DNA of 43,032 nucleotides from Candidatus Sungbacteria bacterium RIFCSPLOWO2_01_FULL_47_32 (GTDB taxonomy: Bacteria > Patescibacteriota > Minisyncoccia > Sungbacterales > GWA2-42-14), in contig MHQP01000001.1 of assembly GCA_001820685.1 (NCBI GenBank), forward strand, positions 1 through 43,032, given 5' to 3'. The position numbers and the translations under genes were made by a program. Positions 10,549-43,032 of this stretch are shown here, piece by piece. The notes beneath the pieces were generated by a model. The model was not told the DNA's origin, ran no database searches, and worked only from the letters and a program-made list of their open reading frames with translations. Every line of letters begins with the position of its first letter. The stretch's first letter is position 1.

Positions 10549-10694
10549 TTAAAAAAATAAAAAGGAAATATACTGTGGTGTCCGAGAAGACAGGCCGTTC
10601 ATTTGGTTCGTACATGACAATGGCCGAGGCAAAAAAGCGGCTCCGGCAAGTTGAGTTTTTCAAGCATCAGGCGGCTAATCGTAAAAAAGGATAA
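10545..10694 (+). CDS. Small basic 49-aa protein upstream of pyrH
   Basis: ATG at 10545 overlaps the preceding stop by 4 nt (ATGA) and reads 49 codons to TAA. The product is strongly basic (MIKKIKRKYTVVSE at the N-terminus, NRKKG at the end) with a KTGRSFGSYMTMAEAKKRLRQ helix. The conserved-looking 'SEKTGR...AKKRLRQVEFFK' pattern is one I associate with small uncharacterised proteins that may bind nucleic acid; that is inference. The 7-nt gap to pyrH suggests cotranscription. Confidence 0.65.
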   Translation: MIKKIKRKYTVVSEKTGRSFGSYMTMAEAKKRLRQVEFFKHQAANRKKG

Positions 10695-10701
10695 TAATTT
10701 T

Positions 10702-11418
10702 ATGGCACACGTTGCATACAAGAGAGTCATTTTAAAGCTTTCCGGAGAAACGCTTGGGGGGAAAGGACAGTTTGGGCTTGATGTTCAGGCGGCGGAATAT
10801 ATCGGCGGGGAAGTTAAGACAGCGCACGACCTCGGGTGCGAGGTTGCTATTGTCATCGGCGGAGGGAATTTTATTCGCGGGGAAAAGCTTTCGAAATTAG
10901 GCATCGACCGCGAAACAGCCGACTACATGGGAATGCTTGGGACGGTCATCAACGGGCTCGCTCTTCAGAGTGTTCTTGAAAAAAAAGGTCTTTATACACG
11001 TGTAATGACCCCCATTGATATGCGGGAAGTTGCGGAGCCGTTCATCCGGCGGCGGGCATTGCGCCACCTGGAAAAGAAGAGAATCGTTATTTTTTGCGGA
11101 GGAACGGGAAGCCCTTATTTTTCAACCGATACGGCAGCAGCATTACGGGCTTCCGAAATCGGGGCTGACGCAATTTTGAAAGCAACGAATGTCGAGGGAG
11201 TGTATGAATCCGACCCGAAGGTAAATAAAAAAGCGAAACTTTTTCGGGAAATTACTCCTATGGACGTCGTAAAAAAGCATCTTAAAGTAATGGACCTTAC
11301 GGCAATTACGCTTTCGATGGAAAACAGTATTCCTGTCGTCGTGTTTGATGTCTTCAAGAAGGGAAACCTCGGAAAGCTTCTTAAGGGCGAGAAGATCGGA
11401 ACTCGCGTCCGAGCGTAG
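10702..11418 (+). CDS. pyrH: UMP kinase
   Basis: 238 aa, full length for the family; cytoplasmic enzyme phosphorylating UMP to UDP. Amino-acid-kinase fold signatures: KLSGETLGG at the N-terminus, IVIGGGNFIRG, DYMGMLGTVINGLALQ, CGGTGSPYFSTDTAAALRA and DLTAITLSMEN. The start MAHVAYKRV fits homologues; an upstream in-frame extension would overlap the 49-aa gene. No clear SD. It begins 7 nt after the small basic gene. The usual frr neighbour is not seen downstream, where an unusual tRNA-Asp locus follows instead. Confidence 0.97.
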   Translation: MAHVAYKRVILKLSGETLGGKGQFGLDVQAAEYIGGEVKTAHDLGCEVAIVIGGGNFIRGEKLSKLGIDRETADYMGMLGTVINGLALQSVLEKKGLYTRVMTPIDMREVAEPFIRRRALRHLEKKRIVIFCGGTGSPYFSTDTAAALRASEIGADAILKATNVEGVYESDPKVNKKAKLFREITPMDVVKKHLKVMDLTAITLSMENSIPVVVFDVFKKGNLGKLLKGEKIGTRVRA

Positions 11419-11506: not shown

Positions 11507-11543
11507 GCGGCCATAGCTTAGCCCGGCTTAAAGCGCCACACTG
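11507..11543 (+). pseudogene. 5' half of tRNA-Asp (positions 1-34), partial copy
   Basis: 37 nt identical to the first 37 nt of the intact tRNA-Asp at 11608, ending exactly after the first anticodon base (G34). Bases on both sides differ from the intact copy, so it is a half gene. See the matching 3' half at 11747. Confidence 0.85.
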
Positions 11544-11549
11544 CCTGCC

Positions 11550-11740
11550 CCGTGCTTTTTCTAAACATAATATATTGTTCTAAATGTAGTATTCTTAAAT
11601 ACTCTGCGCGGCCATAGCTTAGCCCGGCTTAAAGCGCCACACTGTCACTGTGGAGATCAGGGGTTCGAATCCCCTTGGCCGCGCAGAGTATTGAAGCGAA
11701 AAAGATATTCAAAAATAAGTTAGTATTTTTAGAAAAAGTT
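11550..11740. repeat. Inverted repeats bracketing the intact tRNA-Asp
   Basis: CTTTTTCTAAA after the 5' half is the exact complement of TTTAGAAAAAG before the 3' half, with GCCCC/GCGGGG further out. Immediately around the intact tRNA, AATACTCTGC and GCAGAGTATT extend the acceptor stem by ten pairs. The 203-nt insert (11544-11746) is thus a long imperfect palindrome with a tRNA in its middle. Confidence 0.75.
11608..11683 (+). tRNA. tRNA-Asp (anticodon GTC)
   Basis: Full cloverleaf: acceptor GCGGCCA/TGGCCGC, D stem GCTT/AAGC, anticodon stem CCACA/TGTGG with loop CTGTCAC, T stem AGGGG/CCCCT with TTCGAAT loop, and discriminator G as expected for Asp. CCA is not encoded. It is flanked on both sides by half copies of itself. 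Confidence 0.95.
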
Positions 11741-11746
11741 TGCGGG

Positions 11747-11799
11747 GTCACTGTGGAGATCAGGGGTTCGAATCCCCTTGGCCGCGCAGAGTATTGAAG
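11747..11799 (+). pseudogene. 3' half of tRNA-Asp (from G34) plus 3' flank, partial copy
   Basis: 53 nt identical to 11644-11696, starting exactly at the first anticodon base and running 13 to 16 nt past the tRNA end. Together with the 5' half it would reconstitute one whole tRNA-Asp sharing the single base G34. Confidence 0.85.
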
Positions 11800-34129: not shown

Positions 34130-34240
34130 ACCCCGTTAGAAGTCTAAGAGTGGGTTTCGGCTGAAAAAAACAAGGACGTAAGTCGGCTTCGCCTTTTTGC
34201 CAAATTCAGAAGTTGAACAGTGCCGGACTTCTAACGGGGT
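34130..34240. repeat. CCCCGTTAGA element 1 (111 nt, terminal inverted repeats)
   Basis: Perfect 15-bp terminal inverted repeats: ACCCCGTTAGAAGTC (34130-34144) and its complement (34226-34240). The interior holds GACGTAAGTCGGCTTCGCC, also found in the element at 40296 in the opposite orientation with small changes. It ends 20 nt before the ThyX-like start, so it forms that gene's leader or was inserted there. Confidence 0.8.
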
Positions 34241-40295: not shown

Positions 40296-40409
40296 ACCCC
40301 GTTAGAGGCTTAAGATTTTTTTTGTTTATTCAAACTATTGTGAGCCGAAGGCGACTTCGTCTTATTATATCTTGCATACGAAAGACTTGGGCAAACCTCT
40401 AACGAGGTT
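40296..40409. repeat. CCCCGTTAGA element 2 (about 114 nt, inverted copy)
   Basis: Ends ACCCCGTTAGAGGCTT (40296-40311) and AACCTCTAACGAGGTT (40394-40409), which pair at 13 of 16 positions. The interior, GAGCCGAAGGCGACTTCGTC, is the reverse complement of a GACGAAGTCGCCTTCGGC sequence that resembles the core of element 1. Its right end merges into TTGACA of the next promoter. Confidence 0.7.
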
Positions 40410-41606: not shown

Positions 41607-41684
41607 ATGGCTGAAAAATATGAGCCTGTCATAGGCCTCGTCCCGATTTGTAAAATTCTGAAATGTTCTATACTTACATTTTAA
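41607..41684 (+). pseudogene. Stranded N-terminus of GatB
   Basis: ATG at 41607 reads MAEKYEPVIGL, the typical beginning of GatB (KYEPVIGLEIH), then diverges (VPICKILK) and stops after 25 codons. The whole gatB restarts 379 nt downstream as MKLDPIIGLEIH, with the GIY-YIG gene between. A TAGTTT -10-like box ends 6 nt before this ATG. It looks like the original gene start separated from its body. Confidence 0.6.
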
Positions 41685-41989
41685 TCTCAAAAAATAGCGG
41701 GCGATATTATATTGGCGCAACCGGAGACTTAAAAGTCAGGATTTTTGCGCATAACCATGGTAAAGTAAGGTCAACAGGTAGCTATAAACCGTGGGAATTG
41801 TTTTATTTTGAAGAATTTTTCTCGATGGGCCAGGCCCTTAGGCGAGAAAAACAGATAAAAAAGTGGAAAAGTCGCGACGCCATTAGGCGCTTAGGAGAAC
41901 ATTTCAGAATTTTAGACAAATCGAGGATCCTCGATTTTGTAGCCCCGAAAGGCGGGGACAAAATCGGGAAAATTCGTGCTGAAGTATGA
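41663..41989 (+). CDS. GIY-YIG endonuclease-like protein
   Basis: 108 aa. Small stand-alone GIY-YIG nuclease domain of the UPF0213 kind: MFYTYILISKNSGRYYIGATGDLKVRIFAH (GIY as TYIL, YIG as YYIGA, catalytic Arg in LKVRI), the metal-site Glu in RREKQIKKW near residue 61, and the usual trailing basic helix. Such domains cut DNA or belong to mobile endonucleases. The stop overlaps the ATG of gatB (ATGA), and the gene lies between a stranded GatB start and the GatB body. Confidence 0.85.
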   Translation: MFYTYILISKNSGRYYIGATGDLKVRIFAHNHGKVRSTGSYKPWELFYFEEFFSMGQALRREKQIKKWKSRDAIRRLGEHFRILDKSRILDFVAPKGGDKIGKIRAEV

Positions 41990-43032
41990 AACTTGACCCA
42001 ATAATCGGACTTGAGATCCACGCCGAATTAAATACTCGCACAAAGATGTTTTGCGACTCTTTGAACGACCCGGATGAAAAACATCCCAATATTAATATTT
42101 GCCCTGTTTGCATGGGACACCCGGGAACACTCCCCGTTATTAATCAAGAAGCCGTTAAAAAAGTTATTCAGGTGGGTCTTGCTCTCGGGGGAACCACTCC
42201 GGAGTTTTCCCAGTTCGACCGTAAGAATTATTTTTATCCCGACCTGCCAAAAGGATACCAGATATCTCAATACGAACACCCGCTCGTATCGGGCGGCGTC
42301 ATTGAGGTTCGGGGGCGTCCTATTCGCATAACGCGGGTTCATCTTGAAGAAGATACGGGGAGGCTCATCCATAATTCAAAAAGCGGGGGGACGCTTGTTG
42401 ATTTTAATCGCGCGGGAGTTCCTCTGATGGAACTTGTAACAGAACCCGACTTGAGGACGGGCTCCGAAGTGCGCGAGTTTGGAGAAACACTCCAGCAGAT
42501 ACTTCGATATATCGGAGCATCAAGCGCTGACATGGAAAAAGGACAGATGCGCGTTGAGGTTAACGTTTCACTAATTCCCGCGAATGCCTCACGAATTTCA
42601 CAAATACCCGAAGGCAAAGAGAAAGAATACATCCGTGGCATCGACGGTCAGTTCGTGCATATTCGCGACTTAGGTACGAAAGTGGAGATAAAGAACATCA
42701 ATTCGTTCAAGTTTGCCGCAGACGCGGTTGACTATGAGATAGAACGGCAGAGCAAGGTTTTAGACGACGGAGGGAGCGTTGTTCAGGAAACGCGCGGATG
42801 GAACGAACGAAAAGGAGAGTCGTTCTCCCAACGCCTAAAAGAAGGGTCGCATGATTATCGCTATTTTCCGGAGCCTGATCTGCCTCCGCTTTCGATATCG
42901 CGCGAACTTGTCCAGAAACTGCAGGGCTCGCTTCCGGAACTTCCCAAGCAAAAGCAGGTTCGTTTTACGGATGAATACGGTATAGATGAAAAAATAGCAA
43001 GCGTTATCGTAAGAGAAAAAACACTTGCCGAT
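41986..43032 (+). CDS. gatB: Asp-tRNA(Asn)/Glu-tRNA(Gln) amidotransferase subunit B (truncated by window edge)
   Basis: 349 codons in the window, reading off the end. With GatA and GatC it converts Glu-tRNA-Gln to Gln-tRNA-Gln (and the Asp form). Motifs: IIGLEIHAELNT, the CPVCMGHPG zinc-like loop, RKNYFYPDLPKGYQISQYE, HLEEDTGR, FNRAGVPLMELVTEPDLR, and KVEIKNINSFKF. The catalytic and kinase parts are present; the C-terminal YqeY/tail lies outside. Its start overlaps the GIY-YIG stop by 4 nt, so translation is probably coupled. Confidence 0.96.
   Translation, partial: MKLDPIIGLEIHAELNTRTKMFCDSLNDPDEKHPNINICPVCMGHPGTLPVINQEAVKKVIQVGLALGGTTPEFSQFDRKNYFYPDLPKGYQISQYEHPLVSGGVIEVRGRPIRITRVHLEEDTGRLIHNSKSGGTLVDFNRAGVPLMELVTEPDLRTGSEVREFGETLQQILRYIGASSADMEKGQMRVEVNVSLIPANASRISQIPEGKEKEYIRGIDGQFVHIRDLGTKVEIKNINSFKFAADAVDYEIERQSKVLDDGGSVVQETRGWNERKGESFSQRLKEGSHDYRYFPEPDLPPLSISRELVQKLQGSLPELPKQKQVRFTDEYGIDEKIASVIVREKTLAD

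Follow-up and report, generated by a model that had tools for sequence, protein, structure and literature searches.

A tRNA-Asp inside a broken tRNA-Asp

We analysed a 43,032-nt stretch of DNA (hereafter the window) from a Sungbacteria genome of 1.15 Mb, which is a draft in 48 contigs and is 98.5% complete. Downstream of the gene for UMP kinase, an intact tRNA-Asp(GTC) at 11608-11683 lies between the two halves of a second tRNA-Asp that is split at the anticodon. The features of this locus are:

10651..11418, + strand: pyrH (UMP kinase), the syntenic anchor of the tRNA-Asp locus (NCBIfam TIGR02075, 1.1e-89)
11507..11543, + strand: 5' part of the outer tRNA-Asp, interrupted at the first base of the anticodon (37 nt, 100% identical to 11608-11644)
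11544..11547, + strand: CCTG, four extra bases from the 5' half to the left insert end (direct reading)
11548..11607, + strand: left insert arm, starting with CCCCG (11548-11552), an imperfect complement of the right arm (inverted repeats, fold)
11608..11683, + strand: inner, intact tRNA-Asp(GTC) (ARAGORN; Rfam, 68.1 bits)
11684..11747, + strand: right insert arm, ending in CGGGG (11743-11747), whose last G is common to the 3' half (sequence, inverted repeats, fold)
11747..11799, + strand: 3' part of the outer tRNA-Asp and 14 nt of 3' flank (53 nt, 100% identical to 11644-11696)

The first-pass annotation had described an intact tRNA-Asp within a split one, with both halves broken at the same anticodon base, and this holds: the direct repeats of 37 nt and 53 nt are both 100% identical to the inner copy, and the halves meet at the anticodon G (tRNA positions 1-37 and 37-77 when the tRNA is aligned to its own flanks). 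The 14 nt past the tRNA within the 53-nt repeat, GCAGAGTATTGAAG, also follow the inner copy. The complementary insert ends that had been noticed (CTTTTTCTAAA and TTTAGAAAAAG) are real and lie within the longer CCCCG and CGGGG ends; an inverted-repeat search found the insert arms to be 72-80% complementary. The RNA fold of 11507-11799 has a predicted energy of -113.5 kcal/mol (z = -5.5, with 0 of 200 shuffles as good). In the predicted fold, the outer cloverleaf forms and its anticodon opens into a long hairpin with the inner tRNA at the tip.

ARAGORN and Rfam call the inner gene as the only tRNA-Asp at the locus. At the gathering threshold, Rfam found only tRNAs in the whole window, with no group I intron and no group I core in the tRNA-Asp insert, in agreement with the earlier reading. 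The insert holds no nuclease gene. A promoter and terminator scan (4 found vs. 1.2 expected) gave no convincing promoter for the outer tRNA.

In DNA and tRNA searches of the whole genome, no second intact tRNA-Asp turned up. By tblastn synteny, pyrH and tRNA-Asp also occur together in the relatives G002, G016, G011, G017, and G009. Because G016, G011, and G017 carry a single intact tRNA-Asp beside pyrH (the empty site), the outer tRNA-Asp marks the ancestral position. The inner tRNA does have the extended acceptor stem that the first-pass annotation had associated with the nest, but so do the single tRNA-Asp genes of G003 and G004, so this extension is not a sign of nesting. A search of viral contigs with pyrH as the query gave no match, and a permissive Rfam scan of nine relatives gave tRNAs and weak matches under the gathering scores. 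The outer, inner, and G002 tRNA-Asp are all identical, so that a recent event would look the same here as gene conversion or a local duplication.

Other structures were seen at tRNA-Asp genes of relatives. In G003 (locus L009, contig C4), the D loop of a second tRNA-Asp contains two inserted hairpins, of which one has CCCCG...CGGGG ends. In G002, G009, G010, and G079 (L004, L012, L014, and L017), tRNA-Asp is followed on its 3' side by a structured piece of about 140 nt; the start of these pieces resembles the antisense of a tRNA 3' end, their finish is a displaced tRNA 3' end, and they match no Rfam family at the gathering score. These pieces looked related to the nested element, but a tie to the same element could not be made.

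Nested tRNAs across isoacceptors and genomes

The first-pass annotation had proposed looking for the same structure in related genomes, and it is there. Our strict test asked for a 5' part upstream of an intact tRNA and a complementary 3' part downstream, with other intact tRNAs masked, and it was applied to this genome and six relatives. Across the seven genomes, 17 of 233 tRNAs passed it, each lying between halves of its own isoacceptor. As a control, the test was run with tRNAs of other isotypes as queries, and it gave 1 of 2796 (Fisher p of about 1e-18, which is indicative, as the loci and the relatives are non-independent). The opposite strand gave 0 of 233 and swapped order gave 0.

In this genome, where each tRNA was aligned to its own flanks, the strict test counts 7 of 33 tRNAs and 14 of 33 have any remnant. 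Same-isotype remnants surround the tRNAs for Asp, Phe, Thr(TGT), Cys, Ser(TGA), Pro(TGG), Gln(CTG), and Thr(CGT), and one-sided remnants adjoin those for Lys, Ala(TGC), Val(GAC), Glu(TTC), and Tyr. tRNA-Cys is nested twice over: one copy is split with TCCCGTTCAAACTTTTG/CAAAAGTTTGAACGGGA, and inside it lies a copy split with TCCCGCCGCAAAATGTT/AACATTTTGCTACGGGA. (The outermost copy of this triple nest, L068 at C28:1200-3800, also has solo hairpins in its D loop.) In tRNA-Gln, the break is in the T loop, with CCCCGTTAGAT on one side and ATCTAACGGGG on the other. As far as the approximate end points of the alignments show, the breaks are mostly in the anticodon, T, or D loop. All nested copies run in the same direction as the outer tRNA. 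The tRNA-Asp nest is one of many cases and is not unique.

A second element in the window, at gatB

Near its right end, the window has a comparable arrangement in a protein-coding gene that we call gatB (from a reading of the translation, with no family match):

41607..41640, + strand: outer 5' fragment of gatB, encoding MAEKYEPVIGL; it resumes at 41970 as EIRAEV, then a stop (reading frame)
41641..41969, + strand: nuclease-bearing element in the start of gatB, with a TCCCG-hairpin, a GIY-YIG gene, and a second hairpin ending in CGGGA (sequence)
41663-41875, + strand: GIY-YIG domain of the gatB element (PF01541, 63.6 bits)
41920-41935, + strand: junction ATCGAGGATCCTCGAT of the gatB element (junction search)
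41986..43032, + strand: replacement gatB that has a complete start of its own, MKLDPIIGLEIHAEL..., and runs off the contig end (translation)

The insertion is at codon 12. Judged by this anatomy, the gatB case is a protein-gene parallel to the nested tRNAs and a second member of the class in the window.

Insert ends and miniature elements

The inserts usually have the ends (T/C)CCCG...CGGG(A/G), and at clean joins the base before them is G. They are about 90-450 bp long and, by reading, contain either a GIY-YIG gene or no gene. One end type, CCCGTTAGA, has 28 copies in the genome vs. 8 for the reversed control. These copies are mostly paired, 45-140 bp apart and without a tRNA, and many CCCGTTAGA elements have neither nuclease nor tRNA. 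One of them is in the window:

34130..34240, no strand assigned: 111-bp miniature inverted-repeat element with ends ACCCCGTTAGAAGTC/GACTTCTAACGGGGT (15-bp perfect arms; a CCCGTTAGA copy)

Its end type is also found around the nested Gln and Arg tRNAs. (In the window, CCCCGTTAGA ends occur as a pair at 34130-34240 and singly at 40297-40306, for 3 matches vs. 0.07 expected.) On contig C15, another CCCGTTAGA element (L113, C15:14296-14575) has a GIY-YIG gene with one TAG stop between its ends, and it sits right where a sugar nucleotidyltransferase-like gene begins.

The second end type is a junction palindrome, ATCGAGGATCCTCGAT, between two hairpins. Of 384 genomes of the class, 31 have this junction, and the reversed control gave 0. 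(The highest count seen in the class search was in G305, with 23 copies in a 0.7-Mb genome.) Two simpler forms also occur: for Thr-TGT, a minimal element has its ends directly against the tRNA, and solo hairpins are found in loops of the outer Lys and Cys tRNAs. The terminal inverted repeats of MITEs are present, and no target-site duplication was seen at clean joins such as GGTTTG/CATCCGG (L177) or, in tRNA-Gly, GCGGTCATGG/TTTAGTGGTA (slashes mark the joins).

A GIY-YIG nuclease in the fuller elements

The genome has six GIY-YIG matches (PF01541), two of which are genes between a 5' remnant and an intact tRNA, namely Gly(GCC) on contig C4 and Ala(CGC) on C24. In this genome and its relatives together, we found eight GIY-YIG genes that are followed on the same strand, after 4-123 nt, by an intact tRNA (two of these eight loci were chosen for their nearby tRNA; among 34 loci returned by score alone, the count is 6). 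All eight have an upstream 5' remnant of the matching isotype. Most GIY-YIG genes in these genomes have no adjoining tRNA.

Structures with a complete tRNA, a nuclease, and both halves were seen twice. In L177 (G001), the order is GGTTTG / TCCCG-(GIY-YIG)-CGCGGA / TCCTCG-(intact tRNA-Ala)-CGGGA / CATCCGG, and L163 (G142), from another family of the class, has the same arrangement at the same site. Both are nuclease-bearing elements in tRNA-Ala(TGC) at TTTG/CA, with the halves flanking the GIY-YIG gene. The fuller form is a TCCCG-hairpin with the GIY-YIG gene in its loop, closed by CGNGGA, and then a TCCTCG-hairpin with the complete tRNA in its loop, closed by CGGGA. Ten of the proteins, including the gatB-associated one, share the invariant, catalytic-type residues Y5, Y16, G18, R26, H30, and E62. 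The domain with these residues is present in the fuller relatives and in the gatB element, and absent from the tRNA-Asp element. An NCBIfam search of the GIY-YIG proteins gave no named family.

At L123, L144, L176, and L137, other hairpins form the ends and a search for the 3' half found none, so these counts may mix several processes. At L137 (G009), broken copies of tRNA-Lys stand in tandem, the hairpin TCCGTCAGCCGACGGA takes the place of the anticodon-stem and T-loop segments, and the start codon of the nuclease lies inside the outer tRNA.

These elements might instead be miniature transposons with (T/C)CCCG ends, moved by a transposase or recombinase that favours hairpin loops and carrying tRNAs as cargo, with the GIY-YIG genes as passengers. 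Hits in essential single-copy tRNA genes would then survive only if the cargo was the same tRNA. The many CCCGTTAGA elements without nuclease or tRNA, the minimal Thr-TGT element, and the solo hairpins in the outer Lys and Cys tRNAs all fit this explanation. However, no target-site duplication was seen in the clean cases, and the GIY-YIG genes recur at a fixed place in the fuller elements, with the same isotype on both sides. We consider a transposon origin unlikely.

Inner and outer copies

In 15 of the 17 strictly nested cases, the inner tRNA has no bad pairs. At five loci, those of Phe, Thr(TGT), Ser, Pro, and Lys, 4-7 pairs of the outer tRNA are broken. Inner and outer copies differ by 3 compensated pairs for Gln and by 6 for Thr(CGT), and the joined outer Gln keeps all its pairs. 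Because compensated differences suggest divergence as two working genes, the inner Gln and Thr(CGT) tRNAs probably came from elsewhere. Also, the inner Ile(TAT) and Arg(TCT) tRNAs have 0.99-1.00 identity across genera, vs. at most 0.91 for the outer copies; as tRNAs are short and conserved, such cross-genus identities are supporting rather than decisive. The compensatory differences and the near-identical inner copies across genera point to incoming foreign tRNAs. At tRNA-Asp, inner and outer copies are the same, which does not tell a foreign from a local origin.

The first-pass annotation had also raised a nested duplication. In such an event, replication slippage or break repair would have placed a copy of the tRNA in its own loop, and no element would have come in. 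Taken alone, the tRNA-Asp of the window fits this well, as its copies are identical, including the 14 nt of 3' flank. But the insert ends are common to many loci, inner copies are common to several genera, and compensatory changes separate inner from outer copies at Gln and Thr(CGT). Across the class, we regard local duplication as improbable.

Still less probable is that the insert acts like an intron and is removed from the transcript, leaving an outer tRNA that is also functional. The predicted fold in the window would suit this idea, with the outer cloverleaf kept and the insert as an anticodon hairpin, and so would the intact pairing of the joined outer Gln. Against it, many outer copies are damaged, with broken pairs or missing segments, and the window has no group I match. 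We know of no bulge-helix-bulge splicing in bacteria, which also disfavours this explanation. A split tRNA of the archaeal type, another early suggestion, would need functional outer halves and is unlikely as well, since at other loci many of them have decayed. Finally, an assembly artefact, which the first-pass annotation had allowed for and which the 48-contig draft and the identical halves at tRNA-Asp might suggest, is hardly credible, as the longest exact repeat (53 nt) is shorter than ordinary reads and other genomes have the same architecture with diverged halves.

A proposed mechanism

We propose that the tRNA-Asp in the window is probably a nuclease-less member, or remnant, of a set of small, hairpin-ended mobile elements of Patescibacteria in which a nuclease cuts a tRNA gene and the element rescues the cell. 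The idea of a tRNA-carrying mobile unit was already in the first-pass annotation, and it has gained from the recurrence of the same anatomy in several isoacceptors and genera, with common ends and sometimes a nuclease gene. On balance, we lean towards a broader statement as well: that Patescibacteria have natural home-and-rescue elements, which pair a homing nuclease with a functional version of the essential tRNA that it destroys, spread across genera, replace tRNAs isoacceptor by isoacceptor, and stack like matryoshka dolls.

The element would sit in a loop of a resident tRNA of the same isoacceptor, usually the anticodon loop, splitting the gene. Its nuclease would cut intact copies of the target tRNA gene, and repair that uses a copy bearing the element as template, and the tRNA halves as arms of homology, would copy the element in. 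The cell would survive solely through the working tRNA that the element brings. Since every nested copy runs in the direction of the old tRNA promoter, this promoter presumably drives the inner tRNA. The broken outer tRNA would then decay, and the next invasion could stack inside. Cutting, homing, rescue, promoter use, and mobility are steps that we infer, as is a nuclease that the window copy once had or depended on. Because most GIY-YIG genes lie away from tRNAs and many CCCGTTAGA elements have neither nuclease nor tRNA, another enzyme may move the elements.

Relation to known systems

In fungal mitochondria, elements with an endonuclease ORF carry a foreign replacement gene end, as in atp6 of Allomyces macrogynus and in atp6, atp9, cox2, and nad3 of Glomus sp.; their enzymes are LAGLIDADG (GIY-YIG in atp9), and the native part is left downstream (PMC3630166). 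As in our proposal, an endonuclease gene interrupts an essential gene and supplies a foreign substitute for the part that it displaces, and the gatB element resembles these end-replacing elements (PMC3630166). The fungal cases differ in replacing a gene end only and in being mitochondrial, whereas the bacterial, hairpin-ended elements described here carry an entire essential tRNA, which is nested and can be stacked. A foreign copy of the displaced sequence is indicated at other loci, by compensatory differences and cross-genus identity; the tRNA-Asp copies are identical.

SegB of phages T4 and T6 is a free-standing GIY-YIG homing endonuclease of a tRNA gene region that cuts inside tRNA genes (PMC13096335, citing Brok-Volchanskaya 2008). 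It is similar in that a GIY-YIG enzyme beside tRNA genes drives inheritance of the tRNA region (PMC13096335), and it differs in belonging to phages, in having no hairpin ends, and in not lying inside a tRNA with a same-isotype replacement. Engineered home-and-rescue and Cleave-and-Rescue drives link a cutter of an essential gene to a working copy (PMC7968924, PMC7951863). The logic of cutter and rescue is alike, but such drives are synthetic, are engineered in animals, and are not found in nature.

Among CPR bacteria, rRNA insertion sequences encode homing endonucleases that are mostly LAGLIDADG; in that study GIY-YIG enzymes are sparse and seemingly outside homing, and tRNA is unmentioned in the main text (PMC11270868). 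The bacterial group is the same and stable-RNA genes are again the hosts, with rRNA there and tRNA here.

Integrases also use tRNA genes as attachment sites and target the anticodon and T loops. They restore part of the tRNA only, and their elements need an integrase, whereas here there is a full tRNA copy with both halves and, by reading, no integrase was seen. Within the open-access literature, we found no description of nested tRNAs or of tRNA-carrying homing elements in these bacteria. Each component has precedent; a whole tRNA nested inside the tRNA that it breaks is, within that literature, apparently new.

If our proposal is correct, then bacteria have long used the logic of rescue drives, in which an element breaks an essential gene and carries the cure. 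It would explain the foreign replacement of essential single-copy tRNA genes, and it would explain nests that tRNA annotation has overlooked. It would also provide a test bed, since the target site could be read from each nested locus, and the nuclease from the fuller ones. For Patescibacteria, these elements would be a visible route of gene exchange.
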